Part shown: positions 6,070 through 60,586 of the stretch, piece by piece
How positions within the stretch are numbered: position 1 is the stretch's first letter
Layout: the number at the start of each line of letters is the position of its first letter
Assembly (NCBI GenBank): GCA_035274845.1
Contig: DATENU010000015.1
Coordinates: 62,001-126,000 of the forward strand
Length of the DNA stretch: 64,000 nucleotides
Reading direction: 5' to 3'
Origin: Chthoniobacterales bacterium
GTDB lineage: Bacteria; Verrucomicrobiota; Verrucomicrobiia; Chthoniobacterales; UBA10450
Translations under genes and position numbers: made by a program
The notes under the pieces: model-generated
Seen by the model: only the letters and a program-made list of their open reading frames with translations
Databases searched by the model: none
Told to the model about the DNA's origin: nothing

Positions 6070-6364
6070 GAGCAATCGACCGGCGAGTCACTCGGATAAG
6101 ATACGGGGAGGACTTGGTGATCATATACGTCACTGACGTATATGATCTGTTCACAGTCGAAAGTTCCTGAGGCGCGCGATGAACGCGGTGACGACATGCC
6201 GGGCTTCGCGATGCTCGAGCCGCGCATGGAGAAACTCGGTATCAAAGGCACGGCAACATCATGAGGTTGCAAGAGGCACTGCGAAACGGTGGGACGTCAC
6301 ATACCTTTCTGCATTCCTGGTTCCTTTTCTCACGATTGGGACCCATCGCAGCGACAGTCGGCGC
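6070..6364. other. Intergenic region upstream of the Kelch gene
   Basis: It holds the 29-bp palindrome listed separately. It also has a 40-codon frame at 6142-6264 with coding-like bias (ends LEPRMEKLGIKGTATS, then TGA) whose ATG lies inside the palindrome. No family recognised; it may be a small gene or the remnant of one. Confidence 0.4.
6119..6147. promoter_or_regulatory. Perfect 29-bp palindrome, operator-like
   Basis: Two perfect 14-bp arms (GATCATATACGTCA and its complement) are separated by one base. It is AT-rich compared with its surroundings. It lies 49 bp after the TonB-C gene and about 270 bp before the Kelch gene start. Arm length, perfect symmetry and isolation fit a binding site for a dimeric regulator. 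A strong RNA hairpin is the alternative, but there is no U-tract after it. Confidence 0.45.
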
Positions 6365-6392
6365 TTGACATTAGCATCGCAAAGCATAAAAA
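6365..6392 (+). promoter_or_regulatory. Predicted sigma-70-type promoter of the first Kelch gene
   Basis: TTGACA (6365-6370) is followed after 16 bp by TAAAAA (6387-6392); CATAAA at 14 bp overlaps it. The same box, spacing and flanks (TTGACATT, GCATAAAAA, GCGCGTTCC) occur before the paralogue at 10004-10031. Conservation between the two leaders supports it being functional. The predicted RNA start is only about 17-20 nt before the ATG and there is no Shine-Dalgarno sequence. Confidence 0.6.
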
Positions 6393-6415
6393 CGCGCGTT
6401 CCTCACGGCTCCTTC

Positions 6416-9400
6416 ATGCGCTCTTTCCCCAACCGTTTGTCGACCAGGCGCCTTTTCCTCACGGTCGCGATTGGTTCGGCCGTCGTATCCGCGCTCGTTT
6501 CGCTGCGCGCGGCACAGACCGAGCCGGAGGTTTTCCAGCGAACGCTGACGTTCGAAGAGCGCGTGGAGAATCAGCGGAAAATTGAGGAAGTGTACTGGCG
6601 TCATCGCATTTGGCCGAAGGAACGCACTGATCCCAAGCCGGAGCTACGGGCGGTGATGTCCCGCGACCAGATCGAAACCAAAGTGCGCGACCATCTTCGA
6701 AGCTCGCGCATGCTGGAGGATTACTGGCAGCGACCGGTCAGCTCTGCGCAAGTGCAGGCGGAGATGGATCGAATTGCGCAGGAGACAAAGGATCCCGAGA
6801 TGTTGCGCGAGTTATTTGAAGCGCTCGGCAACGATCCATTTGTCATCGCGGAGTGCCTGGTCCGACCGGCGTTGTCGGAGCGCCGGGCGAATGAATTCTA
6901 TGGAACAAGCCCAAAACCGGCGAACCAGCGCCGCGCTGCAGGCGGGAGTGACGCCGTTTTCACCGGCTACTCGCTGCCCGTTTTAACCAGTAACGCGGGC
7001 GTATGCACCGATAACACCTGGTCGCCCTTGATCGATGTCCCAGCGCACCGCTCCGGCCACACGATGGTGTGGACCGGCAGCGAAATGATCGTGTGGGGTG
7101 GGGGTAACTATGACAGGGCTTTGGCAACCGGCGACCGATACAACCCAGCTACTGACAGTTGGTCGACGGTGAGCCTGACGAACGCACCGACTGCGCGAAG
7201 TTCCCATACCGCGGTGTGGACCGGGACGGAAATGATCGTCTGGGGCGGCAGTGGCAGTAACGGCCTTCCTGTTGTTAGCGGCGGCAAGTACGATCCGGCA
7301 AGTGACAGTTGGACGCCGACCAGCCTGAGCAATGTACCTACGGCGCGATATTCTCATACCGCCGTGTGGAGCGGCATTGTGATGCTGGTGTGGGGTGGCT
7401 TCGAGCCCGGGGGGGCGTATCCGAACACCGGCGGTCGCTATGACCCAATTACCGACTCCTGGAGCGCGCTGACCACGACGAATGCGCCGGCGGGACGGAC
7501 TCGGTATTCGGCGGTCTGGACGGGAAGCGAGATGATCATTTGGGGCGGGCAGATTAGCGGCTCGGGTTCGCCAATGATCGGCGCGAAATATAATCCGGCG
7601 TCAGATACCTGGATGACGATGAGTGCGGTAAACGCTCCCGCCAACAGAACCAGCCACAGCGCCGTGTGGACGGGTGCCGAGATGATCATTTGGGGCGGGG
7701 AGAACGGCAGCTACTTGAATGACGGCGCCAGATACGACCCAGCGGCAGATACCTGGGTGACGTTAACTGCATCAAATCCGCCGCCCGGTCGCTATTCTCA
7801 CAGCGCCGTCTGGACCGGCAGCGAAATGATTGTCTGGGGTGGCATTTACAATTTTACGCAACCCAACGCGGGGGGGCGTTTTAATCCGGCCACGAATACC
7901 TGGAGTCCGATGACAATGAATAACGCTCCGTCCGCGTTAGCCGAGCGCCCGACTATCTGGACCGGAAGTGAGATGATCACTTTCGGGGGTGGATATGGGG
8001 ATTCAAACACCGGCGGGAGATATAATCCGACGGCAGATATCTGGACCCAAGTTCGCTCGACCAATACCCCGGCGGGCCGGTACCAGCACAAAACGGTTTG
8101 GACGGGGGCCGAAATGATCGTCTGGGGAGGCAGCAACGGTTTCAACTCGATCAACACCGGCGGCCGGTACGATCCTGCTTTAGACGCATGGACGCCGACC
8201 AGCACGGTGAATGCGCCCGACGCTCGGGAGCTTCACACGGCGGTTTGGACGGGAATGGAAATGATCGTTTGGGGCGGTTGGCGTAGCAAACCTTTCAATA
8301 TTCTGAACACGGGCGGCCGATACAATCCCGCAACAAACAGTTGGACTTCTACGACGCTCACCAATGCCCCGCAAGCAAGGCGTTGGCATTCCGCTGTCTG
8401 GTCGGGCAGCGAAATGATTGTTTGGGGTGGCGAAAAAGTCGGCGGCGGGAACGCGAACACCGGGGGCCGTTATAATCCAAATACCGACTCATGGATTGCG
8501 ACAAGCACAACGAACGCGCCCAGCGCGAGAAAGGACCATACGGCGGTCTGGAGCGGCAGCGAGATGATCGTCTTTGGCGGCGGTTATACCCCCGAGAACA
8601 CCGGTGGAAAATACAACCCGGTCACCGATACCTGGGTTGCGACGAGCACGGACACCGCGGCGCGAAGCAACCACACGGCAGTATGGACGGGCAACGAGAT
8701 GATCGTGTGGGGAGGATACAACGGCGCTCCTTTGAACACGGGAGCGAGGTACAATCCGAGCGCCGACACCTGGACTCCGACCAGCCTTGTCAGTGTGCCT
8801 ACTGGCCGATCCACTCACGCAGTTGTCTGGACCGGGGACGAAATGATCGTGTGGGGCGGTTACAATGGCAGCTTTTTAAACTCAGGTGGCCGATACAGGC
8901 CGAGCACGGACGCCTGGACGGCGACCTCGAGGATCGATGCTCCCCACGAAGCCGAGTATCCCACTGGGGTCTGGACCGGCAGCCGAATGATCGTTTTTGG
9001 CGGCTTCTACAGCATTAGCACTGATAATTTTCTGCTCAATACGGGCGGGGCCTTGTGTTCGAAGTTTGTGAGGCTCGCCAATATCTCCACGCGCGCCTTC
9101 GTCCAGACTGGTGATAACGTCTTGTTTGGTGGGTTAATCATCACCGGCGGCGGACCGAAGAAGGTGGTCTTGCGGGCGCTTGGGCCCAGCCTTTCAAACT
9201 TTGGGATTGCCGATGCCTTACTCGATCCGGTTTTGGAACTGCATGACTCAACCGGTGCGTTGCTCGCATCGAACGACAACTGGATGGACGCGACTAACAA
9301 ACAGGCAATTATCGATAGTGGGCTTGCGCCGAGTCACAATTTCGAATCGGTGATTTTCACCAGCCTCAATCCTGGGTCCTACACCGCCGTTATTCAGGGC

Positions 9401-9844
9401 GTGAATAATATGACCGGAACGGCGGTGATAGAGGCGTACGACCTCGATGAAACAGCCAGTTCCAAATTCGGCAATATTTCAACGCGCTCTTTCGTCAAAA
9501 CGGGAGACAACGTGATGATTGGCGGGGTGATTGCAAGGGGATCAGCTCCGCAAGACGTGCTCGTGCGCGGGATCGGCCCGTCTCTGACGCAGTTTGGGGT
9601 TCCAAACGCCCTCAGCGATCCGTTGCTCGAATTGCACGATGGCAACGGCGGCTTGGTCGCCTCCAACGACAACTGGATAGATGCCTCGAATAAACAGGCA
9701 ATCATCGATAGCGGCCTTGCGCCAAGCGACAAACTCGAAGCGGCGATCTTGACCGCGCTCAATCCGGGCTCTTACACCGCTATCGTTCGCGGAGTCCAAA
9801 ATGGTACCGGGGTCGCATTAGTCGAAGTTTTTGGGCTCAACTGA
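6416..9844 (+). CDS. Large secreted Kelch-like beta-propeller protein, first of a tandem pair
   Basis: This is a 1142-aa exported protein. I start at the ATG at 6416 because it opens a signal peptide (RRLFLTVAIGSAVVSALVSL) and lies just behind a conserved promoter. Residues about 35-200 form a helical N-terminal module shared with the paralogue (LTFEERVENQRKIEEVYWRH). Then come 13 full repeats of about 48-52 residues plus a partial 14th, each reading H-T-A-V-WTG-EMIVWGG...TGGRYNP-TD-W, a Kelch-type propeller signature. The C-terminus holds two copies of an approximately 125-aa domain (LRALGPSL, DPVLELHDSTG, SNDNW, PGSYTAV, AVIEAYDL). Kelch propellers usually bind proteins or glycans; the ligand here is unknown. 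No membrane anchor is seen. Confidence 0.88.
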   Translation: MRSFPNRLSTRRLFLTVAIGSAVVSALVSLRAAQTEPEVFQRTLTFEERVENQRKIEEVYWRHRIWPKERTDPKPELRAVMSRDQIETKVRDHLRSSRMLEDYWQRPVSSAQVQAEMDRIAQETKDPEMLRELFEALGNDPFVIAECLVRPALSERRANEFYGTSPKPANQRRAAGGSDAVFTGYSLPVLTSNAGVCTDNTWSPLIDVPAHRSGHTMVWTGSEMIVWGGGNYDRALATGDRYNPATDSWSTVSLTNAPTARSSHTAVWTGTEMIVWGGSGSNGLPVVSGGKYDPASDSWTPTSLSNVPTARYSHTAVWSGIVMLVWGGFEPGGAYPNTGGRYDPITDSWSALTTTNAPAGRTRYSAVWTGSEMIIWGGQISGSGSPMIGAKYNPASDTWMTMSAVNAPANRTSHSAVWTGAEMIIWGGENGSYLNDGARYDPAADTWVTLTASNPPPGRYSHSAVWTGSEMIVWGGIYNFTQPNAGGRFNPATNTWSPMTMNNAPSALAERPTIWTGSEMITFGGGYGDSNTGGRYNPTADIWTQVRSTNTPAGRYQHKTVWTGAEMIVWGGSNGFNSINTGGRYDPALDAWTPTSTVNAPDARELHTAVWTGMEMIVWGGWRSKPFNILNTGGRYNPATNSWTSTTLTNAPQARRWHSAVWSGSEMIVWGGEKVGGGNANTGGRYNPNTDSWIATSTTNAPSARKDHTAVWSGSEMIVFGGGYTPENTGGKYNPVTDTWVATSTDTAARSNHTAVWTGNEMIVWGGYNGAPLNTGARYNPSADTWTPTSLVSVPTGRSTHAVVWTGDEMIVWGGYNGSFLNSGGRYRPSTDAWTATSRIDAPHEAEYPTGVWTGSRMIVFGGFYSISTDNFLLNTGGALCSKFVRLANISTRAFVQTGDNVLFGGLIITGGGPKKVVLRALGPSLSNFGIADALLDPVLELHDSTGALLASNDNWMDATNKQAIIDSGLAPSHNFESVIFTSLNPGSYTAVIQGVNNMTGTAVIEAYDLDETASSKFGNISTRSFVKTGDNVMIGGVIARGSAPQDVLVRGIGPSLTQFGVPNALSDPLLELHDGNGGLVASNDNWIDASNKQAIIDSGLAPSDKLEAAILTALNPGSYTAIVRGVQNGTGVALVEVFGLN

Positions 9845-10054: not shown

Positions 10055-13000
10055 ATGGGTTTTTCCTCCTGCTTTTTGTCGATCAAACGCCTTTTCCTCG
10101 TGGTCGCGATTGGCGGGGCGGGCTTTTTCAGTCTCGTTTCTTTGAAGGGCGCGCCGATCACAGCCGCCGCCTTCGACCGGACGTTGACGTTTGAAGAACG
10201 CGTGGATTACCAGCGGAAAATTGAGGAAGTTTATTGGCGTCATCGCATCTGGCCGAAAGAACGCACTGATTCCAAACCGGCTCTCGAGGCGGTGATGTCA
10301 CACGGACAGATCGAAGAGAAAGTCCGATCGTATGTGCGAAACTCGCGCGTGCTAGAGGATTACTGGCAGCAGCCGATTAGCTTTCAGGAATTACAGGCGG
10401 AAATGGACCGAATGGCGCGGCAGACGAAGAATCCAGACATGTTGCGCGAATTATTCGCAGCGTTGGGCAACGATCTATTTGTCATCGCGGAGTGTCTGGC
10501 CCGACCGGCGTTATCGGAGCAGTTGGCAAATCAATTTTATGAAATGAAACCACCCTCCGGCGGGGCAACCAGGCTCGGGGTGGCAGGGGTCCGTTCTCGG
10601 AACGTGCCGGCCTTCACCGGCTACTCGCTCCCGGCTTTAGGCGGAATTCCCTCCGGCACATGCATAGACGACACCTGGTCGGCGCTGGCCGACCTGCCGG
10701 CACGCCGTGCCACACATACGGCGGTGTGGACGGGCAGCGAAATGATCGTGTGGGGTGGAAGTAATTATGATCTGCCGATAGGCACCGGCGACAGGTACAA
10801 TCCAGCCACTGACAGTTGGTCCAAGGTGAGTCTGACGAACGCACCAACGGCCCGATATCGCCATACGGCGGTATGGACCGGTACGGAGATGATTATCTGG
10901 GGTGGCGCCGACCCTGGCTTTTTTTTAAGCAGCGGTGGCAAGTACAATCCGGCAAATGACACGTGGACCCCAACGAGTCTCAGCAATGCACCTACGCCGC
11001 GGTTTTTTCACACCGCGGTCTGGACCGGAACAGAAATGATTGTTTGGGGTGGCACTGATGCCACTTCCCCGATTACTGGTGGTCGCTATGATCCGAGCAC
11101 CGATTCGTGGCAGGCAATGAGCACCGCCAATGCACCGGAAGGCCGCATCGAGCACACGGCCCTCTGGACTGGAAGTGAAATGGTCGTTTGGGGCGGCAGG
11201 AGCTGCGACACCTGCTACTTAAAGAGCGGCGCGAAATACAATCCGGTGTCAGACACCTGGACGAGCACCAACACCGTGAGCGCCCCGGTGGCGAGAACGG
11301 CGCAAGGCGCGGTCTGGACGGGCAGTGAGATGCTGGTTTGGGGCGGCTGGAATGGCGCTTTCGTAGGTGACGGCGCCAAATACAACCCTGCCGCCGACAG
11401 TTGGGTCGGGTTGAGTGCAAGCAATCCGCCTGCGGCTCGCCAATCGCCTGTCGCTGTTTGGACAGGCACCGAAATGATTCTTTGGGGCGGCATAGTCGAC
11501 GGTCAATCCGGCGCGCCGGCGAATTCTGGGAGTCGTTACAATCCAGTCACGAATATCTGGAGCCCGATGAACACAAGTAACGCTCCGTTTCAAGGAGCGA
11601 CAAATACCGCGGTTTGGACAGGGAGCGAAATGATCGTGTTTGGCGGCGGCTATGGTGAAACCTTAAACGACGGGGGGAGATACAATCCGACGGCCGATAG
11701 CTGGACCCCAGTTCCCACTACGAATAACCCAGCCGGCCGATATGAGCACCAAACAGTTTGGACAGGCAGCGAAATGATCGTCTGGGGTGGCCAGCTCAAC
11801 AATGTCCTTACGACCAACAGCGGAGGCCGATATGATCCCGCTTTGGACAGATGGACGCCGACTTCGACGTTAAACGCGCCGGAACGCCGGGAATCTCATA
11901 CCGCGGTTTGGACGGGCACGGAGATGATTGTCTGGGGAGGCTGGGGTCCGGATCCTTTTCGCATCCTAAACACAGGTGGACGATACGCCCCCGCGACAGA
12001 CACTTGGACTTCTACGACCCTGACAAATGCGCCTGCTCCCCGACGATGGCACTCCGCTGCCTGGACCGGTAATGAAATGATTGTTTGGGGCGGGGAACTC
12101 GGAGGAGGCAGCGGTTTTACCAACACCGGTGGGCGATACAATCCGAGCACAGACTCGTGGATTGCAACCGGCACCGCAAACGCACCCGGCTCGCGAAAAT
12201 ACCATACGGCGATTTGGACGGGGACAGAGATGCTGGTTTGGGGCGGCGTTTTTCTTTCGTCGGGCCCTACCAATACAGGTGGAAGGTATAATCCGGTCGA
12301 CGACAGCTGGGCGGCCACTAGCACTATTGGGACTGCCGCGCGAAATCGGCATACCGCGGTATGGACGGGAGAGGAGATGATTGTGTGGGGAGGTTCTGCT
12401 GCCGGTCCTTCTGAAAACGGCGGGGCGCGGTACGACCCGAGAACCAATACCTGGGCTTCGACAAGCCTTTTCAATGCGCCGGCTGGTCGAGGCTCTCATG
12501 CCGCCATCTGGACAGGGGACGAAATGATCGTGTGGGGTGGAAATGGTTTACACCAGGACCCCTATTTGAACACCGGTGGACGATACCGTCCCAAGACTGA
12601 CAGTTGGATCCCCATTACTACCATCAATGCCCCTCTCGGCGTCGAGCTCCCGACCGCCGTCTGGACCGGCGATCGCATGATCGTATGGGGAGGATACTTT
12701 AGCTATTACGACCCTTTGCACCATTTTCATGCCTTTGTCGCCAGCACCGGAGGACAATATTGCCCGGGCTCCGGCCTACCGCCGGGGACGCTCGCTAATA
12801 TCGCCACTCGCGCCTTCGTCCAGACTGGCGACAATGCTATGATTGGCGGATTGATCGTCACCGGGACCGGACCGAAGAAGGTGATCCTCCGTGCAATCGG
12901 CCCGAGCCTGTCCAATCTTGGGATTACGGATGCGTTACCCGATCCGGTTTTGGAACTGCATGATTCGACGGGAGCAGTGCTTGCCTCCAGCGACAACTGG

Positions 13001-13564
13001 GGCGACGCGCCGAACAAACAAGCGATCATCGATAGCGGCCTGGCGCCGGGTCACAATCTCGAAGCTGCGATTTTGACCAATCTAAATCCCGGTGCTTACA
13101 CGGCCGTTCTTCGCGGCGCGAACATGGGCACCGGGACCGCGGTGGTCGAGGCGTACGATCTCGAGCAAACAGCCAGTTCCAAACTTGGAAATATTTCCAC
13201 GCGTGCTTTTGTGCAGACGGGAGACAGAGTGCTGATCGGCGGGTTGATCGTAACGGGCTCGGGTCCCGAAGTCGTGGTCGTACGGGCGATCGGGCCATCC
13301 TTGGCGCAGGTCGGAGTGGCAAATGCGCTAGCCGACCCGGTGCTCGAATTGCGCGACAGCAATGGCTCCTTGCGCGCTTCCAACGACAACTGGATCGACG
13401 CGGCTAACAAACAGGCGATCATCGATAGTGGCCTTGAGCCACGCCACAATCTCGAGTCGGCGATTTTGACGAGTGTCAGTCCCGGCTCTTACACCGCCAT
13501 TGTTCGCGGAGTCCAAAATGGTACCGGGGTCGCATTAGTCGAAGTTTTCGGGCTCGATCACTGA
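10055..13564 (+). CDS. Large secreted Kelch-like beta-propeller protein, second of a tandem pair
   Basis: This 1169-aa protein has the same architecture as the gene at 6416. It has a signal peptide (IKRLFLVVAIGGAGFFSLVS), the LTFEERVDYQRKIEEVYWRH module, 13 Kelch-like repeats plus a partial 14th, and two C-terminal RG-x-GPSL domains (LRAIGPSL and VRAIGPSL, DPVLELHDS, DPVLELRDS). Repeats correspond one-to-one with the paralogue: repeat 9 carries ILNTGGRY in both and repeat 11 is shortened in both. This indicates duplication of a finished gene. The last stretch (13502-13548) is identical to 9785-9831. It has its own promoter, so the pair need not be an operon. Confidence 0.88.
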   Translation: MGFSSCFLSIKRLFLVVAIGGAGFFSLVSLKGAPITAAAFDRTLTFEERVDYQRKIEEVYWRHRIWPKERTDSKPALEAVMSHGQIEEKVRSYVRNSRVLEDYWQQPISFQELQAEMDRMARQTKNPDMLRELFAALGNDLFVIAECLARPALSEQLANQFYEMKPPSGGATRLGVAGVRSRNVPAFTGYSLPALGGIPSGTCIDDTWSALADLPARRATHTAVWTGSEMIVWGGSNYDLPIGTGDRYNPATDSWSKVSLTNAPTARYRHTAVWTGTEMIIWGGADPGFFLSSGGKYNPANDTWTPTSLSNAPTPRFFHTAVWTGTEMIVWGGTDATSPITGGRYDPSTDSWQAMSTANAPEGRIEHTALWTGSEMVVWGGRSCDTCYLKSGAKYNPVSDTWTSTNTVSAPVARTAQGAVWTGSEMLVWGGWNGAFVGDGAKYNPAADSWVGLSASNPPAARQSPVAVWTGTEMILWGGIVDGQSGAPANSGSRYNPVTNIWSPMNTSNAPFQGATNTAVWTGSEMIVFGGGYGETLNDGGRYNPTADSWTPVPTTNNPAGRYEHQTVWTGSEMIVWGGQLNNVLTTNSGGRYDPALDRWTPTSTLNAPERRESHTAVWTGTEMIVWGGWGPDPFRILNTGGRYAPATDTWTSTTLTNAPAPRRWHSAAWTGNEMIVWGGELGGGSGFTNTGGRYNPSTDSWIATGTANAPGSRKYHTAIWTGTEMLVWGGVFLSSGPTNTGGRYNPVDDSWAATSTIGTAARNRHTAVWTGEEMIVWGGSAAGPSENGGARYDPRTNTWASTSLFNAPAGRGSHAAIWTGDEMIVWGGNGLHQDPYLNTGGRYRPKTDSWIPITTINAPLGVELPTAVWTGDRMIVWGGYFSYYDPLHHFHAFVASTGGQYCPGSGLPPGTLANIATRAFVQTGDNAMIGGLIVTGTGPKKVILRAIGPSLSNLGITDALPDPVLELHDSTGAVLASSDNWGDAPNKQAIIDSGLAPGHNLEAAILTNLNPGAYTAVLRGANMGTGTAVVEAYDLEQTASSKLGNISTRAFVQTGDRVLIGGLIVTGSGPEVVVVRAIGPSLAQVGVANALADPVLELRDSNGSLRASNDNWIDAANKQAIIDSGLEPRHNLESAILTSVSPGSYTAIVRGVQNGTGVALVEVFGLDH

Positions 13565-22924: not shown

Positions 22925-24049
22925 TCACTTCGGCGTGGCGATCATGATGGCCGACTGGCTCGGTTTCCATTGGTAGCCAAAGCTGAAAGGCAAAGGCGCC
23001 GGGTGGCTGGCGTTGGCATCCTTCTGGAGGTCGAGCTGGCCGTGTTTCAGGAAGCGGTTGATCGGCCCGATGTAATGTCCGTGGAAACGAATGTCCCACT
23101 TGTTCTTCGCAAAGTAGCGATAGGGAATTCCCGAATCTTCCTGGACGATCATCTTGCTATGGGTCAGTAGGTAATCACGAACCTGGGAGAAGTTGTCTGA
23201 GTGCATCAGATAAGAGGCGGCCTTTAACAAACTGACGCCCGTACCTTGCTGCTCGCAAAACTTCATGAAATTCGGGTTCACTTTGATGGCCCAATCCGCC
23301 AGGTCGGTCGTAAAATAATAAAGCGTTTGGGGCCGGCCGGCCGGCCCGGTGAACATGATCTTCACTCCCGGGGTGGTGCCTTTCCCTTCCGGGACAAAGG
23401 CGCCGGCCTTGTCGAGCGCGACGAGTTCGACCGAGTCGATTCTGCATCCAGCGCGGGCGAGGAAAACGTAGAGGACCGGCAGGGTGCCACTGAGCTGCTG
23501 TTGCCGCAGATCGACCTTCATGTTTTTGGTGATGAAAAAGCTGAAGCTGAGGACGGAATCCAGTGACTTGCGCAGATTTGCCAGGGCCGAAGCGAGGGCA
23601 GGGTGCGCGACTTTCGTCACATCGGGGATGGGACCGACGGGTTCGACGCCGCAAAGAATGTAAGTGCTGGCGTTGGGAAAGAAGACGTTGGCGTAAAGAA
23701 AGTCCGGGCCGCTGAACATGTAGTACATTGGGCCCTGGTCCTGATAAGCGGGGCCGAGGACCTCGGGTGTCCAGGTGCGAAGTTTCGAAAGCTGCCGCTG
23801 CTCCAGTTGGTTCCACGCCTTGTCGAGATCGGTGGCGTGGGTGGTCCAGCCGGCAACGTTCACGTAGTTCTCGAGGGGAGTGTCCCGGACCGGCAATCCG
23901 GCGAGGTATTTTGCCGTGGCATCGGCGACCGGATCGGCCGCGAAAGCGGAAGAACAGGACGCAATCGAAATAACTAAAAGGAGTAATTTATTACGCAACG
24001 CGTGTAACGATAAGGTATTAGCTAGAATAGCTTTACGAAGTGCGCTCAC
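22925..24049 (-). CDS. Secreted protein of unknown family, paralogue of the gene upstream
   Basis: This is a 374-aa protein. It starts with GTG at 24049 in a GTGA overlap with the stop of the upstream gene. The signal peptide (NKLLLLVISIASCSSAFA) begins about residue 20. Aligned features shared with the 24046 gene are GPMYYMFSGPDFLYANVFFP, TYILCGVEPVG, FFITKNMKVDL, GTLPVLYVFLAR, QTLYYFTTDLAD, SLLKAASYLMHSDNFS, QEDSGIPYR and a final FSFGYQWKPSQSAIMIAT. I do not recognise the family. The first 30 codons are strikingly AT-rich compared with the rest. Confidence 0.8.
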   Translation of the reverse strand: MSALRKAILANTLSLHALRNKLLLLVISIASCSSAFAADPVADATAKYLAGLPVRDTPLENYVNVAGWTTHATDLDKAWNQLEQRQLSKLRTWTPEVLGPAYQDQGPMYYMFSGPDFLYANVFFPNASTYILCGVEPVGPIPDVTKVAHPALASALANLRKSLDSVLSFSFFITKNMKVDLRQQQLSGTLPVLYVFLARAGCRIDSVELVALDKAGAFVPEGKGTTPGVKIMFTGPAGRPQTLYYFTTDLADWAIKVNPNFMKFCEQQGTGVSLLKAASYLMHSDNFSQVRDYLLTHSKMIVQEDSGIPYRYFAKNKWDIRFHGHYIGPINRFLKHGQLDLQKDANASHPAPLPFSFGYQWKPSQSAIMIATPK

Positions 24050-25071
24050 TTGTGCGTCGCCAGCATCAGAATGCCGCGGTCCCGTTGCCAGTGGTAGCCA
24101 AAGGCGAACCCGAGCTCGGGCGGCGGCGGCTCCCGATTGTATATCGCCGCCAGATCGGGTTGATGATATTTCCCGAACATCTCCGCGTGCGGCACATAGC
24201 GCCCATAGAAATCAACCTTCCAGCTCTTCGGAAACGCTTTCAGAGGAAGGCCGGTATCGTCCTGGATAATTACGCGGCTGTGTTCGAGCAGGAAATTGCG
24301 GACGCCTGAGAACCCCTCGGTGTGCATCAGGTAGGAAGCGGCTTTGAGCAGGCTGTTTCCCGGGCCTTGCTCAGCGCACCATTTCAAAAACGGGCTCGGA
24401 CCGCCGGAGAGATCGGTCTTGAAGTAATACAATGTCTGGGGGCTGCCGCCCCGGGTGGTGAAAGTAATTTTCACCCCTTCGGCCGGGGATTTGACGTAGG
24501 TGGTGGAGAGAACGGTGCAGTTCAGCCGGGCGAGGAAAACGTAAAGGATGGGAAGGGTGCCGCCGAGATTGGGGCGGGTGAGGTCGGCCCGCATGTCCTT
24601 GGTGATGAAGTAATGGGTCTGGAGGACGGTATGCATCGAAGCGCGCAACGCGTTGAGATCGGTCCGCAACGCCGCGATATCCATCTTGTTTAGATCGGGC
24701 ACCGTCCCGACCGGTTCGAGTCCGGCGAGGATGTAAGTCTTGGCCTGGGGATAGAAGAGGTTGGCGTAAAGGAAATCGGGGCCACCGAACATGTAATAAA
24801 CCGGCTTCGTGCTCGAATACGGCTCGGGCGCGTTGGCCAGCATCCAGGCGCGGATCGGGCGGATCTGGAAGAAATCCTTTTTCACCCAGGCGCCATCGAG
24901 GGTGCGGGCATGGTCCTGCCAGGCGGGATCGTGGGTGAGCGGCTCCAGCGAGGAGCGATCTCCCTGGGTGCGAATGCCGGCGAGAAAACGCGCGGTTTCG
25001 TCGAGGGTGGCGGCCGGAGCGAAAGACGGGAGAGCGAGGGCGATAAGTAAAATGAGCAAGAATCGTTTCAT
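24046..25071 (-). CDS. Secreted protein of unknown family, first of an overlapping pair
   Basis: This 341-aa protein has a signal peptide (MKRFLLILLIALALPSFAPA). It shares an ordered set of motifs with the gene that follows: PVYYMFGGPDFLYANLFYP, TYILAGLEPVGTVPD, YFITKDMRADL, GTLPILYVFLARLNC, SPQTLYYFKTDL, NSLLKAASYLMHTEGFS, DDTGLPLKAF and FAFGYHWQRDRGILMLATH. The conserved aromatic/acidic clusters suggest an enzyme or carbohydrate-binding protein, but there is no known signature. The stop overlaps the GTG of the next gene by 4 bp, so translation is probably coupled. It lies 8 bp after the permease gene stop, perhaps one operon. Confidence 0.8.
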   Translation of the reverse strand: MKRFLLILLIALALPSFAPAATLDETARFLAGIRTQGDRSSLEPLTHDPAWQDHARTLDGAWVKKDFFQIRPIRAWMLANAPEPYSSTKPVYYMFGGPDFLYANLFYPQAKTYILAGLEPVGTVPDLNKMDIAALRTDLNALRASMHTVLQTHYFITKDMRADLTRPNLGGTLPILYVFLARLNCTVLSTTYVKSPAEGVKITFTTRGGSPQTLYYFKTDLSGGPSPFLKWCAEQGPGNSLLKAASYLMHTEGFSGVRNFLLEHSRVIIQDDTGLPLKAFPKSWKVDFYGRYVPHAEMFGKYHQPDLAAIYNREPPPPELGFAFGYHWQRDRGILMLATHK

Positions 25072-33859: not shown

Positions 33860-36013
33860 CTACTGAGCGCCACGGTCGTAGACCTCGACAAGACCGACTC
33901 CGGTTCCGCCGTTCAGTCCGGCCAGGATTGCCGTGTAGGCGCCCGCCGGGAGCATAATTGCGATCGCGGCGTCCTCCGGGAAGAGCGGGGCAAGGTGAGC
34001 TGCGCTCAATTCCGCGGCTTGGGCGGGATCGTCCTGCCAATTGTTGTTGGCGATGAGAAGCGCTCCGTTGCTATCGCGCAATTCCAGGGTCGGATCGGCC
34101 AGCGCGTTTGGAATACCATAAAGGGCAAGAATCGGCCCGAGACCACGGATCACGATTCGGCCCGGGCCGGTTGCGGGAGGATTTCTCCATTCACCGCTGA
34201 GGATGAAACCCGCAATCACGACATCGTTACCCGTGCCGACCAAGCCGCGGGTGCTGATATTTTGCAGCGGGAAGTAAGGGGTACGTCCGAGGTTATAAAT
34301 CTCCACCAAAGCCGCCCCGGACGTATCATTTTTGCCTTGCAGGATGGCGGTATAACTTCCGGCTTCCAGCAGCACCCCAGTCGCTGCTTCCAGATCGTAA
34401 AAGGGCGCCAGATTTGAGCCTTGGATCAAAATCGCCTCTGGGTCGTCTCTCCAATTATCGTTCGTCCGCACGTCGAACCCGAAGGGGCCATGCAACTCCA
34501 GGACGGGATCGGCGAGAACGTTCGGGACGCCGCTGATTTCCAAGGTAGGTCCCAGACCTCGAAGGACTATTCTGGTGCGGCCATTGATGATAAACCCGGC
34601 GATAGCGGCGCTGTCCCCAGTTCCGACTCGCATCCGCGTCGATAGGTTGAGGGCGTGCATGGGGTAGCCATTCGGGATGGGGGTTGCGGTCGGGACTGGT
34701 GTCGGGGTGGCGGGGGGTGGCGTCCCGGTCGCGCTTGGCGTGGCTGTCGGAGTTGCATTGCTGGGATCCGGACCCTGAATCGCAGCCACGAAAGGGGTCC
34801 CGGTCTTGAAGAAGCCGATCGTCGCCGTCGCCGCATGCGGGGGGCGGTTGGAATCGAACCGGAAATTGTACAACGTCCCCCAGCGAATGGCGTTCGCGTT
34901 CTGGTTTTGCGCGAACGTCTCCGAACTCCAGCTGAGCGAGCTGGCGGTTTCGTTCGAACTCCAGGCCGCGTTGCTGTAACCCGCATCCCCGAGAGTTCCA
35001 TCGTGGGGGAACCCAGGATGATTCAGCGGCGCATGGAACCCCGCGTTGCTCACCGCGATCGTGCCTCCCAGGGGCACACTGACGGATTGAATCGCGCGAT
35101 CCAGATTCATGTTGTAAATCGCGTACTCGTAATGCCACATCCCGCCGGCTGGGCCGGAGACTTTGCTGGCGATAAAGGCCCGGCCATCTTCTCCCGGCAC
35201 GGGTTCGATGGCGGTGATGGTGGCTCCGGACCAGGCGTTGAGCGCAGGGGACATTCGGACCGTGTTTTCCGCTGGGGCAAAGGTTATATCCGCCCCTACC
35301 GAGAACCGGCGATACGAAACGTTGTTGAACATGTTGCACTCCCCAGGATGCGCCTGACACCACGCATATTCGCTTGGGGTGACGTATTGAACCTCGGCGT
35401 AATAGGTCGCCCCGGGGTTCGTCGCAGGCACCAGGTCATTGCGTTCGACAAGGAGCCGATGAGATGTGCCGGTCTCGGTGTGGCCAGTGTGGTCCATGGC
35501 ATTCGACGGAAAGACACCTGTAAAAGGATTCACCCAGGCTCGTGAGCCCAGGCCGTTCTGCATTGCATTTTGGGACGAGAAGTAGGGGTCGGAGCACCCC
35601 GGCTCGAGATGAGTGGATTCGCTGGCGCTGCAGCCGAAGCCGCACTCATCGGCGTTCGCCGATCCGAACGTGTGCTTGATCCAGGCCTGGCCCACCTGCT
35701 CAAAGCGTTCGGCGTTACCGGTTCCTCCGCTCATTCGATAGAGATTCTGTGCTATCACAGCGTGGCTCGTATTGGGGAGGGGTATAAAATCAACCTGGAC
35801 GTTTCCGGCGTTGCAACTGTCCGTTCCCATGCCGAGACCGAGCTGGGAGGACGATGTTCCGCTGGCGCCATACACAGCGAGGTTAGGGACATCGCCGACA
35901 ATGATGTCAGGACCAGGGACAAGACTGCCCGCCACGCTGAAATCGGCGGCCCCAAGCCAGGCGAATAACAGTGAGAGTGCGAAAGTGAAATGCCGGGATC
36001 GCCTGGTTAACAT
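33860..36013 (-). CDS. Large secreted protein with two RG-x-GPSL C-terminal domains
   Basis: This is a 717-aa protein. I start at the ATG at 36013, which opens a signal peptide (FTFALSLLFAWLGAADFSVAG); the open frame upstream is chance extension. The N-terminal two-thirds (GSLVPGPDIIVGDVPNLAVYG... SFGCSASES... AIYNMNLDRAIQSVSVPLGG) is beta-rich with no family I know. A TPTATPSATGTPPPATPTP linker follows near residue 440. Two copies of the domain also found at the end of both Kelch proteins come next (LRGLGPTLEISGVPNVLADP, RTNDNW, GSYTAIL, ALVEIYNL; then IRGLGPILALYGIPNALADP, NNNWQDDP, GVGLVEVYDRG). Probably a surface or secreted protein. Confidence 0.85.
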   Translation of the reverse strand: MLTRRSRHFTFALSLLFAWLGAADFSVAGSLVPGPDIIVGDVPNLAVYGASGTSSSQLGLGMGTDSCNAGNVQVDFIPLPNTSHAVIAQNLYRMSGGTGNAERFEQVGQAWIKHTFGSANADECGFGCSASESTHLEPGCSDPYFSSQNAMQNGLGSRAWVNPFTGVFPSNAMDHTGHTETGTSHRLLVERNDLVPATNPGATYYAEVQYVTPSEYAWCQAHPGECNMFNNVSYRRFSVGADITFAPAENTVRMSPALNAWSGATITAIEPVPGEDGRAFIASKVSGPAGGMWHYEYAIYNMNLDRAIQSVSVPLGGTIAVSNAGFHAPLNHPGFPHDGTLGDAGYSNAAWSSNETASSLSWSSETFAQNQNANAIRWGTLYNFRFDSNRPPHAATATIGFFKTGTPFVAAIQGPDPSNATPTATPSATGTPPPATPTPVPTATPIPNGYPMHALNLSTRMRVGTGDSAAIAGFIINGRTRIVLRGLGPTLEISGVPNVLADPVLELHGPFGFDVRTNDNWRDDPEAILIQGSNLAPFYDLEAATGVLLEAGSYTAILQGKNDTSGAALVEIYNLGRTPYFPLQNISTRGLVGTGNDVVIAGFILSGEWRNPPATGPGRIVIRGLGPILALYGIPNALADPTLELRDSNGALLIANNNWQDDPAQAAELSAAHLAPLFPEDAAIAIMLPAGAYTAILAGLNGGTGVGLVEVYDRGAQ

Positions 36014-43419: not shown

Positions 43420-44649
43420 ATGGAATCGCTCCGCCTCTTTCGAGAACTGACCCCGGTCCAGCGGAAGACGTTCCTGGCCTGTTTTCTCGGCTGGGCGCTC
43501 GACGCGCTCGATTTCTTTCTCGTTACCTTCGTCCTCGCTCAAATTTCCCAGGACTTTGGCCGAAGCATTCCGGAGGTCGCCTTCTCGATTACGCTCACCC
43601 TGATGATGCGCCCGTTAGGCGCTCTCATTTTCGGCTGGTTAGGCGACAGGTTCGGCCGGCGGATCCCGCTCATGATCGATATCGTCTTTTATTCGGTCAT
43701 GGAATTGGCGACGGCGTTCGCTCCGAATTTCACGGTGTTCCTCATCCTGCGCGCTCTCTTCGGGATTGGGATGGGGGGTGAATGGGGCCTGGGCGCGTCG
43801 CTCGCGATGGAGTCCCTGCCGACGAAGGCACGCGGGTTGTTTTCCGGGATTCTGCAGCAGGGCTATGCCGTCGGCTATCTTCTGGCGGCCCTGGTTTATT
43901 GGATTGTATTCCCTTTGTTCGGCTGGCGGGGTCTGTTCGTGGCGGGAGCGTTGCCGGCGTTCCTCGTGATCTACATTCGAGCGCACGTCCCGGAATCGCC
44001 GGTCTGGGAGAGACATCGCGAAACGCGCCAGCACCGGCCGCGGTTTTCGGTGCTCGTCCGGCAACACGGCGCGCTCTTTCTTTACGCGGCCCTCCTCATG
44101 ACCGCATTCAATTACATGTCGCACGGCACGCAGGATCTTTACCCGACGTATCTGGAGAAACAGCGAGGGTTCGGGGTCAGCGCTAAATCCATAATCAGCA
44201 TCGTTTATGCGATGGGCGCCATCTGTGGCGGCGCCATCGTCGGTTCGCTTTCCCAAACCTGGGGTCGCCGGCGCGTGATCATTCTTTGCGCCATCGGCGG
44301 CATGCTTTTGATCCCGCTCTGGATATTCGCGCCGAACACCGCCTTGCTCATGCTGGGCGGCTTCCTCATTCAATTCATGGTGCAGGGGGCCTGGGGCGTG
44401 GTTCCCGTCCATCTCAATGAGCTCTCACCGCCGGCGTTTCGCGGATTGTTTCCCGGCCTGGCCTATCAAATGGGAAACTTCGCGGCGGCGTACGCTGCTC
44501 AGCAACAGGCCTGGCTGGCGGAAAAATTTCGATTACCCAACGGCGAACCAAATTACGCGCTGACCATGGCGCTCGTGCAGTGCGTGGTGTTCCTGGCGGT
44601 GATCATCCTCGCTGCTGTTGGGCGCGAGAAACGCGGGATCGAATTTTAG
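43420..44649 (+). CDS. MFS transporter of the sialate/lactate (SHS) type
   Basis: This is a 409-aa, 12-TM major facilitator protein. The start GWALDALDFFLVTFVLAQIS is typical of the SHS/NanT-JEN1-like group. Motif A is GWLGDRFGRRIPLM between TM2 and TM3, and its counterpart GSLSQTWGRRRVII is in the second half; FGIGMGGEWGLGASLAMESL covers TM4-5. It probably imports an organic acid or acidic sugar with protons. The stop codon merges with the start of a palindromic repeat. No catabolic genes are adjacent to name the substrate. Confidence 0.9.
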   Translation: MESLRLFRELTPVQRKTFLACFLGWALDALDFFLVTFVLAQISQDFGRSIPEVAFSITLTLMMRPLGALIFGWLGDRFGRRIPLMIDIVFYSVMELATAFAPNFTVFLILRALFGIGMGGEWGLGASLAMESLPTKARGLFSGILQQGYAVGYLLAALVYWIVFPLFGWRGLFVAGALPAFLVIYIRAHVPESPVWERHRETRQHRPRFSVLVRQHGALFLYAALLMTAFNYMSHGTQDLYPTYLEKQRGFGVSAKSIISIVYAMGAICGGAIVGSLSQTWGRRRVIILCAIGGMLLIPLWIFAPNTALLMLGGFLIQFMVQGAWGVVPVHLNELSPPAFRGLFPGLAYQMGNFAAAYAAQQQAWLAEKFRLPNGEPNYALTMALVQCVVFLAVIILAAVGREKRGIEF

Positions 44650-44732
44650 GTGGATCGAGCGCTCCGTCGCTCGATGGGTGCAGACGACATTGGCGCAAAC
44701 TCCCATCGAGCGGCGGAGCGCTCGATCCACCC
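44649..44732. repeat. GGTGGATCGAGCG element, copy 1
   Basis: 30-bp inverted ends (GGTGGATCGAGCGCTCCGTC...) with one mismatch. It starts at the last base of the MFS stop codon. Related copies: 44853-44933 and 49624-49731. Confidence 0.8.
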
Positions 44733-44794
44733 CGAGAAACGGACGAGCCTCGCTCCGGTGCGATCCTTCATCGCCCCAGACGCGCACGTCGCAT

Positions 44795-44817
44795 CTTGAC
44801 GGCTTAAAGCCGTCAAG
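44795..44817. repeat. Perfect hairpin, second copy of the 20494 sequence
   Basis: CTTGACGGC-TTAAA-GCCGTCAAG is exactly the core of the hairpin at 20494-20522. It stands between two GGTGGATCGAGCG elements in the gap between convergent genes. Confidence 0.75.
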
Positions 44818-44852
44818 TTTGCGCCGGGTCTCGCTGGGGCAGGTAGGCAAAT

Positions 44853-44933
44853 GGTGGATCGAGCGCTCCGTCGCTCGATGAGTGATCCACCCGAATTGGG
44901 GAACGAGCATCGCGCGACAGAGCGCGTGATCCA
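44853..44933. repeat. GGTGGATCGAGCG element, copy 2 (degenerate right arm)
   Basis: The left arm matches copy 1 exactly over GGTGGATCGAGCGCTCCGTC and beyond. The right arm (CGCGCGACAGAGCGCGTGAT) has drifted. It ends 1 bp before the stop of the amidase gene. Confidence 0.65.
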
Positions 44934-57107: not shown

Positions 57108-57272
57108 ATGGCGAAAACCCAAACGAGAAAATCGCAACGCTTTCCTAATTCCGACGGCCCCAGGAGATTCGCATATTACGTAGCCCCCACCTTTGTCCCA
57201 AAAGCGACCATTTTTGGTCTGGCTTCGCAAACTTTTGTTCTTAGTATGCAGTCGCATATGAACCCCAGATGA
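57108..57272 (+). CDS. Possible small ORF overlapping the start of the STAND gene
   Basis: A 54-codon frame from the ATG at 57108 (MAKTQTRKSQRFPNSDGPRR, then FVPKATIFGLASQTFVL) ends in TGA at 57270-57272, overlapping the ATG at 57269 by 4 bp. That geometry fits translational coupling. The N-terminus is basic and the C-terminal half hydrophobic. Codon use is not decisive and no family is recognised. It may simply be open leader sequence. Confidence 0.25.
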   Translation: MAKTQTRKSQRFPNSDGPRRFAYYVAPTFVPKATIFGLASQTFVLSMQSHMNPR

Positions 57273-60200
57273 CTCCTGATTCCGACGGACTTCACGAGAT
57301 TGCAAATACTGCAGATTCACGCCGGCAGGCCGACGTCGTATTCGTTCATGGCCTAGGAGGTGGGTCACATGGAACCTGGACGCACGCGAAAAAAGGAAAC
57401 CCGGCGTACTTCTTTTGGCCAGAAGAGTTGGGAAAACGCTTCCCACAGTGTGGAATTTGGGCGGTCGGCTACCCAGCAGGACTAACAACACTCGGCAAAC
57501 CCGGAATGATCATCGATAAAAGGGCGGGCAACCTCGCCTTAAAGCTTGCCAACGCGGGTATTGGCATGCGTCCCGTAGTATTTGTGACTCACAGCATGGC
57601 CGGGTTGATTGTGAAATCTCTAATCGTAGGCAGCCAAACGCTTGCTGATACGGATCGGAAGCGACTAGTTAGTGTAATTCGAGGGATTGTATTCTGCGCC
57701 GTTCCCCATAAAGGCTCCGCCTTTGCCGACGCTGCGGGCGTATTGGGAAGATTTTTCGGCGGTAGTCAGGCTCATGTGAATGAGATGCGTGCCAATGCCG
57801 AATCGCTTGACATTCTTCATGACGAGTTCATCGAATGGCACCACCACCACCCGATTCCAATCGATAGCTACGCAGAGAGTGTTGGACTGTTCAGAGGACG
57901 GTGGTGGTGGCGACCCCTAGCTCTAGGCCTTGTGGTTCCTCGGGCGTCGGCAAATCCGGGAATCGCTGGGTATACCATTCACGACGTGGATGACGATCAC
58001 TTGAGCATCGTCAAGCCGCGAGACGCCAAGCACGACGTTTGCGCGGGTGTGCTGCGGTTTGTTGAGAGAATTGTGTCTGTAATTTCAGCGGAAGGAAGTC
58101 CTACAACCTCCGTTGTTCTACCGCTTTCTGTTCGTTCTTCGGAGAGCGCCGCCAACTTCGACGTATCCCGCATAATCAAGTATGCACCAGTTGAACTCGT
58201 GGGACGCAAAGAAGAACTCCAGCTGCTAAACGACGCTTGGGGTAGAGCAGTTCGCGGGGAAGCGAACCGCCCTCATGTCCTTAGCATCGTTGCGGTCGGT
58301 GGGGAAGGGAAAACCTCTCTCGTGAGCAAGTGGGTTACAGATTTGGCTCGCAACAATTGGCCCGGCTGCGAAGCAGCTTTCGCATGGTCCTTCTACAGCC
58401 AAGGGACTAGGGAAAATTTATCTTCGTCCGACGTGTTTATCAAAGAAGCGCTCTCATTTTTCGGTGACTCCGATATGGCAGCTAGCGGCGATGGGGCGTT
58501 CGAGAAAGGACAGCGCCTTGCTCATCTAATCGGTGGGCGGCGGACGCTTCTCGTCCTTGACGGTCTTGAGCCGATGCAATATACGCTAACATCACCGACT
58601 CCAGGGGCACTAAGGGATTTGGGGTTAGCCGCGCTGCTGAAAGGTCTTGCTTCCGCGAGCAATGGCTTGTGTATCATCACTACACGCTATTCAGTTTCCG
58701 ACCTGCATTCTTACTTGCAGACAAGTGTCGCTGAGGAGCGACTAAACCAGCTTTCAAAACCGGCCGGCGTGGCGCTGCTCCGATCCCTTGGAGTGTTGGG
58801 AACACTCCGAGAGTTAGAGTCACTCGTCGGGGATGTCAAAGGCCACGCATTAACGTTGAACCTGCTCGGGAATTGGCTTCATACCGTTCACGCCGGAGAT
58901 ATTCGTCGGCGGGCGTTGGTGAAGTTGGAGCAAGCCGATTCGGAGCAACAGGGAGGCCACGCCTTCCGCGTCATGGCTGCATACGGACGCTGGTTCGAGT
59001 CCGAAGGCGAGCCAGGAAAATTCGCATTCGCGATGTTACGGCTGCTTGGATTGTTCGATCGTCCAGCGACCGCAGACTGTCTCGCTGCTTTGCTTCAGAA
59101 TCCCGCAATACCGGGGTTAACCGACGCACTTGTCGGTGCCAGCGAGGCCCAATGCAACGCGGCATTCATTCGATTGGAGGCTGCCAGCCTGCTTGCAGTA
59201 AACCGAGGCTCGAACCGAAGATTGATCTCGCTCGACGCTCACCCGCTGGTGCGCGAATACTTTTCTCGCCAATTACGCACCAACAACCCAGAGGCGTGGC
59301 GTATTGCACACCGGCGGCTCTATGAACATCTTTCGCAGAACACGGCGGACAAGGCCGAGCCCACGCTGGAGGATCTCCAACCTCTCTACCAAGCGGTTGC
59401 CCATGGCTGCAACGCAGGACTGCAGCAGGAGGCCTTAGAACGCGTATACTACGATCGGATCAAGCGGCGAGCCCAAGGCTACAGTGATAAGAAACTTGGC
59501 GCGTTCGCTTCTAATTTAGGAGCTGTTGCGTGCTTTTTTGATCAACCTTGGAGCCGCCCGTCGGCTCTGGTTGCAGACGGGGCACAAGCGTGGCTCCTGA
59601 ATGAAGCCGCGGTATGTTTGCGCGCGTTGGGTCGACTGACCGAAGCGCTAACTCCGATGAGGGTATCTGGGGAAATGGATGTCAAGGTTGGGCGGTGGAA
59701 TGGTGCGGCCATCAGCTATGGTAATCTGAGCGAGTTGGAATTGACATTGGGCGACGTTGCTTCGGCAGTGGTGAACGCCGAGCTGTCCGTGGCCTACGCC
59801 GACCGAAGTGGCGAGTTGGAGGAGCGCGTGACCAAGCGAGCGGTGCACGCTGAGGCTCTCGATCGGGCGGGTCGCCGAACTGAGGCGCAAGCGCGCTTCG
59901 AGGAAGCCGAGCGGATACAAGTCCAGGAGTGTCCGGACTACCCACTGCTCCATTCGGTGTGGGGATTTTGGTATTGCGACTTCCTTATGGGTGAGGCGGA
60001 ACGTGTCGCGTGGCAACTAATTCTAAAACTGCCCCTTTGCTCCGCCGTTAAGGACGCAGCGCTTTCTTGCCGTGCAGTCGCCGAGCGTGCTGCCCAAACC
60101 TTGAAATTAGCTGAATATTCTGGCGCGGACATCCTTAGTATTGCGCTTGACCGTCTTAGCGTAGGCCGCGCTGCAATTTGCGCTGCTATTCTGGAAGCAA

Positions 60201-60586
60201 ATCGTTCAGACTTCGCTTTTGGCGTACGCCGCTCAGAGTTAGACTCGGCGGTGTCGGGACTCCGACGCTCTGGCAATATCGACGACCTTCCTCGCGGACT
60301 TATCGCGCGCGCCTGGTTGCGCTCGCTCACCGGCGCACGCACGGGAGTCGACAGCGCGCAGTCAGACCTAGACGAAGCTTACGACATCGCTGAGCAGGGA
60401 CAGATGAAACTTTTTCTCGCCGACATTCACCTGCACCGCGCGCGGCTATTCTTGAATGAGGAATTCTACCCTTGGCTGTCTGCCGCAGGCGATCTAGCCG
60501 CCGCGAAGCAACTCATTGAAAAATATGGCTACGGGCGAAGAACAGACGAATTGCAAGACGCAGAAGAAGCGTTGAGGCGCGCCTAG
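57269..60586 (+). CDS. Alpha/beta-hydrolase + STAND NTPase + TPR-like protein, candidate immune receptor
   Basis: This is a 1105-aa cytoplasmic protein. Residues ~20-265 form a PGAP1/SesB-type esterase: VVFVHGLGGGSHGTW, nucleophile S109 in FVTHSMAGLIVKSL and a likely catalytic H244 in DVDDDHLSIVKP. VGRKEEL (311) opens a STAND/NB-ARC ATPase: Walker A VAVGGEGKTS (K348), Walker B RTLLVLDGLE (D431), sensor IITTRYSV (R473), GHALTLNLLG and winged-helix DAHPLVREYFSRQL. Residues ~735-1105 are helical TPR-like repeats, a likely sensor. The order effector-switch-sensor is that of bacterial Avs/bNACHT-type and fungal SesB NLR proteins. Less GC-rich codons and isolation suggest transfer. The antiphage role is inference. 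Confidence 0.88.
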   Translation: MTPDSDGLHEIANTADSRRQADVVFVHGLGGGSHGTWTHAKKGNPAYFFWPEELGKRFPQCGIWAVGYPAGLTTLGKPGMIIDKRAGNLALKLANAGIGMRPVVFVTHSMAGLIVKSLIVGSQTLADTDRKRLVSVIRGIVFCAVPHKGSAFADAAGVLGRFFGGSQAHVNEMRANAESLDILHDEFIEWHHHHPIPIDSYAESVGLFRGRWWWRPLALGLVVPRASANPGIAGYTIHDVDDDHLSIVKPRDAKHDVCAGVLRFVERIVSVISAEGSPTTSVVLPLSVRSSESAANFDVSRIIKYAPVELVGRKEELQLLNDAWGRAVRGEANRPHVLSIVAVGGEGKTSLVSKWVTDLARNNWPGCEAAFAWSFYSQGTRENLSSSDVFIKEALSFFGDSDMAASGDGAFEKGQRLAHLIGGRRTLLVLDGLEPMQYTLTSPTPGALRDLGLAALLKGLASASNGLCIITTRYSVSDLHSYLQTSVAEERLNQLSKPAGVALLRSLGVLGTLRELESLVGDVKGHALTLNLLGNWLHTVHAGDIRRRALVKLEQADSEQQGGHAFRVMAAYGRWFESEGEPGKFAFAMLRLLGLFDRPATADCLAALLQNPAIPGLTDALVGASEAQCNAAFIRLEAASLLAVNRGSNRRLISLDAHPLVREYFSRQLRTNNPEAWRIAHRRLYEHLSQNTADKAEPTLEDLQPLYQAVAHGCNAGLQQEALERVYYDRIKRRAQGYSDKKLGAFASNLGAVACFFDQPWSRPSALVADGAQAWLLNEAAVCLRALGRLTEALTPMRVSGEMDVKVGRWNGAAISYGNLSELELTLGDVASAVVNAELSVAYADRSGELEERVTKRAVHAEALDRAGRRTEAQARFEEAERIQVQECPDYPLLHSVWGFWYCDFLMGEAERVAWQLILKLPLCSAVKDAALSCRAVAERAAQTLKLAEYSGADILSIALDRLSVGRAAICAAILEANRSDFAFGVRRSELDSAVSGLRRSGNIDDLPRGLIARAWLRSLTGARTGVDSAQSDLDEAYDIAEQGQMKLFLADIHLHRARLFLNEEFYPWLSAAGDLAAAKQLIEKYGYGRRTDELQDAEEALRRA

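Follow-up and report, generated by a model that had tools for sequence, protein, structure and literature searches.

The C-terminal domains (CTDs) of type IX secretion are reused across many unrelated secreted proteins, and their position at the C terminus is obligatory. Substrates of the PEP-CTERM/exosortase system bear a genome-wide tag on exported proteins, which is composed of a short motif, a membrane helix and a basic C-terminal tail. Modular enzymes combine a Pro/Thr (PT) linker with a β-sandwich. PPC domains (PF04151), exemplified by the s3a–s3b tandem of ColG, s3 of ColH and the PPC of B. anthracis, share a β-sandwich and a C-terminal, tandem arrangement on secreted proteins with the domain pair described here.

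Excerpts of one study (PMC3327674) report that two C-terminal PPC domains bind proteins through residues D26, D28, Y30 and Y/W65, that secretion of MCP-03 does not need its PPCs and that the PPC domains of proteases are usually cleaved once secreted. Collagen binding by PPC domains is stated in an excerpt of a second study (PMC6168687), and the two sources together cover collagen and casein (PMC3327674, PMC6168687). In Myxococcus, a tandem-PPC fragment of FibA is placed in the extracellular matrix (PMC3236237, excerpt), and the P-domain of AprV5, a different C-terminal extension, is described as likewise dispensable for secretion (PMC3480457, excerpt).

Three exported proteins with a shared C-terminal pair

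The window, by which we mean the whole 64,000-nucleotide stretch of Chthoniobacterales DNA analysed, encodes three proteins that a sequence-only reading had proposed to end in two tandem domains of about 125 residues. This proved correct: the six copies can all be aligned with one another, each domain spanning about 125 residues. The first protein, P0001 (717 residues), is encoded by an open frame at 33860..36013 on the minus strand, and its front part has no Pfam or NCBIfam match. Its translation, read by eye, begins with a signal-peptide-like N terminus (residues 1–28; 35930..36013, minus), and a Pro/Thr-rich linker (residues 420–450; 34664..34756, minus), a pattern that recurs genome-wide, connects the front part to the pair. 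Copy A (residues 451–575; 34289..34663, minus) and copy B (residues 580–714; 33872..34276, minus) are defined by HMM alignment and predicted fold, and only three residues separate the end of copy B from the C terminus.

The other two proteins are Kelch propellers identified from their open frames and Pfam matches, both on the plus strand. Kelch protein 1 lies at 6179..9844, its true start probably being downstream of the listed ATG, and HMM alignment places its domain copies at 9065..9445 and 9458..9838. Kelch protein 2 lies at 10055..13564, with copies at 12782..13162 and 13175..13555. The pair thus occupies residues 451–714 of 717 in P0001, 963–1220 of 1221 in Kelch protein 1 and 910–1167 of 1169 in Kelch protein 2. 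P0001 gave no match to the Pfam PPC model (PF04151) at an E value of 1, and at the same threshold the NCBIfam matches of the three proteins were Kelch-type families and one stray family, with nothing over the pair. The front parts had been described as unrelated; since the two Kelch proteins have their Kelch family matches in common and appear to be paralogues, the window holds two kinds of front part rather than three, and it is across the genome that the fronts are varied.

Three other features of the window were recorded. A protein of 1105 residues (57269–60586, plus) contains an AAA_16/NACHT-like NTPase region just below the Pfam cut-offs, and its N-terminal region matches PADLOC DUF626_VIII (E 1.8e-16), making it a candidate STAND-type defence protein. 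Two neighbouring, similar exported proteins of 374 and 341 residues without a Pfam match are encoded at 22925–25071 (minus). Direct and inverted repeats of 28–32 nt at 44649–44913, by a gene junction, resemble a small palindromic repeat element.

Expansion of the pair in the home genome

The genome from which the window derives comprises 4.54 Mb in 24 contigs. One search with the pair returned 142 matches, and the stretches round all 142 were examined with a domain HMM that was seeded with the six window copies and spanned 124 positions once iterated. This HMM found 254 domain copies in 126 distinct open frames, which takes the shared domain beyond chance resemblance. The number of frames slightly exceeds that of genes because a broken gene on contig C9 is counted as two pieces and fragments at contig ends are counted too. 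By script count, 112 frames hold two copies, nine hold one and five hold three, one of the three hits in the latter being short and partial; two nearly full copies are present in 113 frames. Measured from stop to stop, domain-bearing frames make up 7.4% of the genome.

The pair has a uniform layout and a variable sequence. The linker between copies is seven residues long in 103 of 122 gaps, the pairs are 34–95% identical (median 50%), their median net charge is −10 and just 10 of the 113 contain cysteine. Single copies occur but are few, one example being a 172-residue frame on contig C7 that has no Pfam match. In the largest array, 15 pair frames follow one another almost back to back on one strand over about 49 kb (contig C22:154796–203587, L079–L082). 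Copies A and B separate with 89% support in a tree of the home-genome domains, trees that are weak given such short sequences. Copies from another family, f7, cluster by family and not by A/B position, so a one-time duplication is doubtful and repeated or homogenized duplication may apply.

Fold and relationship to PPC domains

AlphaFold2 predicts the pair as two confident β-sandwiches (pLDDT 93.2, pTM 0.87). The top PDB match of the pair in Foldseek is the tandem collagen-binding domain (CBD) s3a–s3b of ColG (E 9.7e-8) with a poor overall TM-score (0.29), which may reflect a different rotation of the two units; in a second structure comparison the whole pair reached a Z score of 7.4 at most. 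Copy B modelled alone (pLDDT 91.2) gave higher scores. Its best fold match is the β-jelly-roll C-terminal domain of Tk-SP subtilisin (Z 10.2, r.m.s.d. 3.0, 95 aligned residues), but this is a single domain on a Thermococcus protease. The ColG CBD (Z 9.0, r.m.s.d. 2.6, 92 aligned), the PPC of a B. anthracis collagenase (Z 8.6, r.m.s.d. 2.4, 91 aligned) and the ColH CBD (Z 8.4) follow, and Foldseek E values for Tk-SP, the ColG CBD and the B. anthracis PPC range from 2.7e-5 to 9e-5 (best PPC/CBD value 5e-5). The predicted model hence has the β-sandwich fold of PPC domains, its Z scores against PPC/CBD structures being 8.4–9.0. This is a broad class of fold, in which DeCLIC N-terminal domains, PliG and GOLD domains reach Z 8–8.8 and calpain C2-like and LipL32 sandwiches are also little behind. 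Since unrelated sandwiches trail so closely, the fold by itself is no proof of PPC descent.

Profile comparison points the same way. In hhalign, copies A and B aligned with a profile of 30 PPC domains of the phylum at 87–93% probability, compared with at most 0.7% in 40 column-shuffled comparisons and 0.2% in two reversed ones, and the likeness runs across a common core from D-P-x-L-E-L to G-x-Y-T. We regard this as supportive, though not decisive, of homology at the profile level. The Pfam PPC model itself matches only weakly (21 of 113 pairs, best E 0.0022) and gives no match in the home genome at 0.001, for which reason we call the domain PPC-like and not a PPC member; its suggested PPC homology rests on fold and on profile–profile scores. 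With the register taken from the hhalign alignment, which does not include E495, the first Asp and the late Tyr of the PPC binding residues are kept, and the second Asp and first Tyr are replaced. The aligned core would thus appear to miss part of the D-x-D-x-Y motif that is important for binding in E495.

Other resemblances were examined. Pfam Secretin matches in 27 of 113 pairs (best E 0.0016) and designed Kelch-like chains found by searching sequences of solved structures were both rejected, the single stretches being insignificant; that search returned nothing else useful. GBD_IRG7_N matched 33 of 113 pairs (best E 0.00015), a further jelly-roll resemblance. In Pfam and NCBIfam we found no model that convincingly matches the pair domain, and in the open-access literature, which excludes subscription papers, no description of the pair.

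The pair domain also differs from PPC domains in several respects. It is about 125 residues long, contains an R-x-x-G-P-x-L segment and goes unrecognized by the Pfam model, it is fixed as a pair and occurs mostly on non-proteases, in more than 100 proteins per genome, and in searches within the Verrucomicrobiota it is known from few families.

Passengers, linkers and export

That the pair proteins are exported, as the sequence-only reading assumed, agrees with the signal-peptide-like starts that a simple script detected in 100 of 110 intact pair frames, compared with 12 of 110 internal control windows. Several of the ten frames missed by the script carry a signal-like start by eye, among them P0001, in which the start lies beyond the scanned stretch.

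We then compared 111 passengers, in two batches of 58 and 53, with Pfam and considered the 25 commonest of the 80 and 49 families matched. Propellers are the most frequent: Kelch_6 was found in 11/58 and 3/53 passengers, DUF5122 in 5/58 and 8/53, and WD40 in 3/58 and 7/53. GDSL lipase, M14, S8, M4 and M12B-like peptidases, Cu-oxidase and β-helix also appear among the families listed. The 40 residues preceding the pair are at least 40% Pro and Thr in 48 of 111 frames, as against 1 of 111 stretches taken from the middle of passengers.

This PT-linker and sandwich layout is like that of modular enzymes, and the pair might accordingly be thought to bind an outside substrate such as a plant, fungal or soil polymer, much as the carbohydrate- or protein-binding modules of enzymes do. 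The lipases and peptidases among the passengers would fit such a role, as would the binding of collagen and casein reported for PPC domains in the excerpts cited above. The commonest recognized passengers, however, are propellers and not enzymes, and a single substrate for more than 100 proteins is less natural than a single shared place. We hold binding of an outside substrate to be distinctly unlikely.

A removable pro-region or an aid to folding or stability, cleaved after export, is a role suggested by the PPC-like fold and by the cleavage that excerpts of PMC3327674 describe as usual for PPC domains after secretion. Few passengers are recognized as proteases among the families listed, so cleavage would depend on some other protease, and simple trimming is ill-suited to the N-terminal and internal pairs described below. 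This role is very unlikely.

Position of the pair

The sequence-only reading asked whether the domain is always C-terminal. In the home genome 119 of 126 frames are closed, the last copy ending 0–7 residues before the end of the frame in all 119. Three of the other seven are cut by contig ends and were excluded, leaving 123 judgeable frames, and four run on long past the pair. L114 is the clearest of these, with the order signal peptide, pair, CHRD and DUF1800 (DUF1800 E 2e-88), and L113, L115 and L070 carry long sequence C-terminal to the pair. Among named relatives, 107 of 114 closed frames end within 10 residues of the domain; six of the seven exceptions are clear, the remaining one, L196, being doubtful (one partial hit in a 528-residue frame). 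The 17 pair frames from family f7, which are best-scoring loci with chance neighbours and not a random sample, comprise 11 C-terminal pairs, three N-terminal pairs just behind a signal peptide, one internal pair and two with a membrane tail. Two of the three N-terminal pairs, from different genera, share similar C-terminal parts. The claim therefore describes a strong tendency: it fits 119 of 123 home frames and fails in four of these, in seven of 114 in relatives (one doubtful) and in the four N-terminal or internal pairs of the 17 from f7. Frequent internal or solitary occurrence had been set against an anchor or sorting role; in the home genome such cases are rare but clear, L114 being one.

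Two observations concern sequences that follow the pair. In L070, L115, L151, L178 and L203, a second recurring domain (ENFDGVTAPALPAGW...FRNNFNTE...) lies behind an internal pair, mostly after a Pro/Thr linker. At L252:1151–7240 (minus), an f7 protein of 2030 residues carries a divergent pair that leads into a Gly/Ser stretch, a membrane-spanning helix and a tail of basic residues, an arrangement like that of a sortase-type anchor.

Comparison with sorting signals

The strong C-terminal bias (119/123) need not arise in a plain binding module, and it keeps alive the alternative that the pair is a C-terminal secretion or sorting signal for a dedicated outer-membrane system, like the type IX CTD. 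Indeed, the pair lies within seven residues of the end in 119 of the 123 judgeable home frames, the seven-residue linker is constant in 103 of 122 gaps, the passengers are unrelated, as with type IX CTDs, and the expansion is lineage-wide. Unlike that of the type IX CTD, however, the position of the pair is not obligatory, N-terminal and internal cases occurring at home and in other families, and the three window proteins have no match to an NCBIfam sorting-tail model. As a genome-wide tag on exported proteins the pair resembles PEP-CTERM, but it is a folded unit of about 255 residues with only 0–7 residues, and thus no membrane helix, behind it (119/123 home frames). A tail of the PEP-CTERM kind was seen only in the f7 proteins L126/L252 and L127, in which the pair is followed by a Gly/Ser-rich segment of about 55 residues, a membrane helix and a basic tail.

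Nor did we find a dedicated system that co-occurs with the domain, as the sequence-only reading had envisaged. Across the 197 genomes of the order, exosortase, which the home genome also has, was present by hand count in 31 of the 38 with the pair and in 112 of the 159 without it. Secretin occurs in 194 of these 197 genomes, all 38 pair-positive ones among them, so neither follows the pair. SprA, the type IX marker, was not detected in the home genome, a search in which 14 control genomes gave no signal either, and the surroundings of the C22 array showed no private export system. Elsewhere in the home genome (L245, C11:310434–321970), a pilus-like operon whose last gene is a secretin is followed directly, without a change of strand, by two pair genes. 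This operon was set aside as a private exporter and is not built upon here because secretin is so widespread (194/197).

N-terminal or internal pairs in 4/123 home and 4/17 f7 frames, membrane tails in 2/17 and the failure of exosortase and secretin to track the pair together weaken the case for a C-terminal sorting signal, which we consider unlikely.

Taxonomic spread

With an alignment of the 113 home-genome pairs as query, the pair was found at phylum level in 10 of 194 genomes, at class level in 26 of 286 and at order level in 38 of 197; the order-level matches cover all eight genomes examined from the home genus. The pair-positive families are the home family (f1), f54, f7 and f98, and first-look candidates per genome range within f1 from 184 down to near zero. 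Genera g1, g109 and g111, for example, are rich in pairs, whereas g108 and most of g110 are free of them. Named relatives with the pair are soil and permafrost assemblies of Chthoniobacterales, Spartobacteria and Verrucomicrobia, from which 77 distinct loci were retained after confirmation of 526 stretches. None of the plasmid records searched matched. The pair domain is thus a new PPC-like family, lineage-restricted within the Verrucomicrobiota search and used as a fixed tandem.

Discussion

Our preferred explanation, to which we assign a probability of roughly 0.48, is that the pair consists of two PPC-like β-sandwiches, a distant relative of PPC and clostridial collagen-binding domains, that serve as an attachment module for a ligand in the envelope or matrix. 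Such a module fits the PPC-like layout, the flexible linkers, the varied passengers and the tolerance of other positions. Pair proteins would leave the cell through Sec and then a general route across the outer membrane. Once outside, the pair would bind one common envelope or matrix ligand, a polysaccharide or surface protein, and, where a Pro/Thr linker is present, the passenger (Kelch, DUF5122, WD40 or BNR propeller, lipase or peptidase) may be left hanging free. That the ligand would belong to the cell's own surface is suggested by the varied passengers sharing one tail. The module would have been copied onto many passengers in few families of Verrucomicrobiota, where it is mostly last in the chain and at times in other positions. 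The original idea of a surface anchor or sorting signal survives best as anchoring by binding, the N-terminal and internal pairs speaking against an obligatory C-terminal signal.

A bolder possibility, for which the odds are rather low, is that a PPC-derived two-domain address tag and its own putative surface or matrix receptor make up a separate surface-display system. This would operate in Chthoniobacterales and at least one other family of Verrucomicrobiota and in each genome would place more than 100 propellers and enzymes independently of sortase, exosortase and type IX components. What we describe is an expanded new form of a known type of domain, and we do not claim a new mechanism.

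Little is known of how soil Verrucomicrobiota display their exported proteins. These bacteria are abundant and hardly cultured, according to an excerpt of one report (PMC11596606). About 7% of the DNA of the home genome lies in frames with a single domain family that has no name in Pfam or NCBIfam, and a named model would let annotators spot very many secreted proteins at once. The ligand of a single pair would reveal the attachment target of a large share of the exported proteome.
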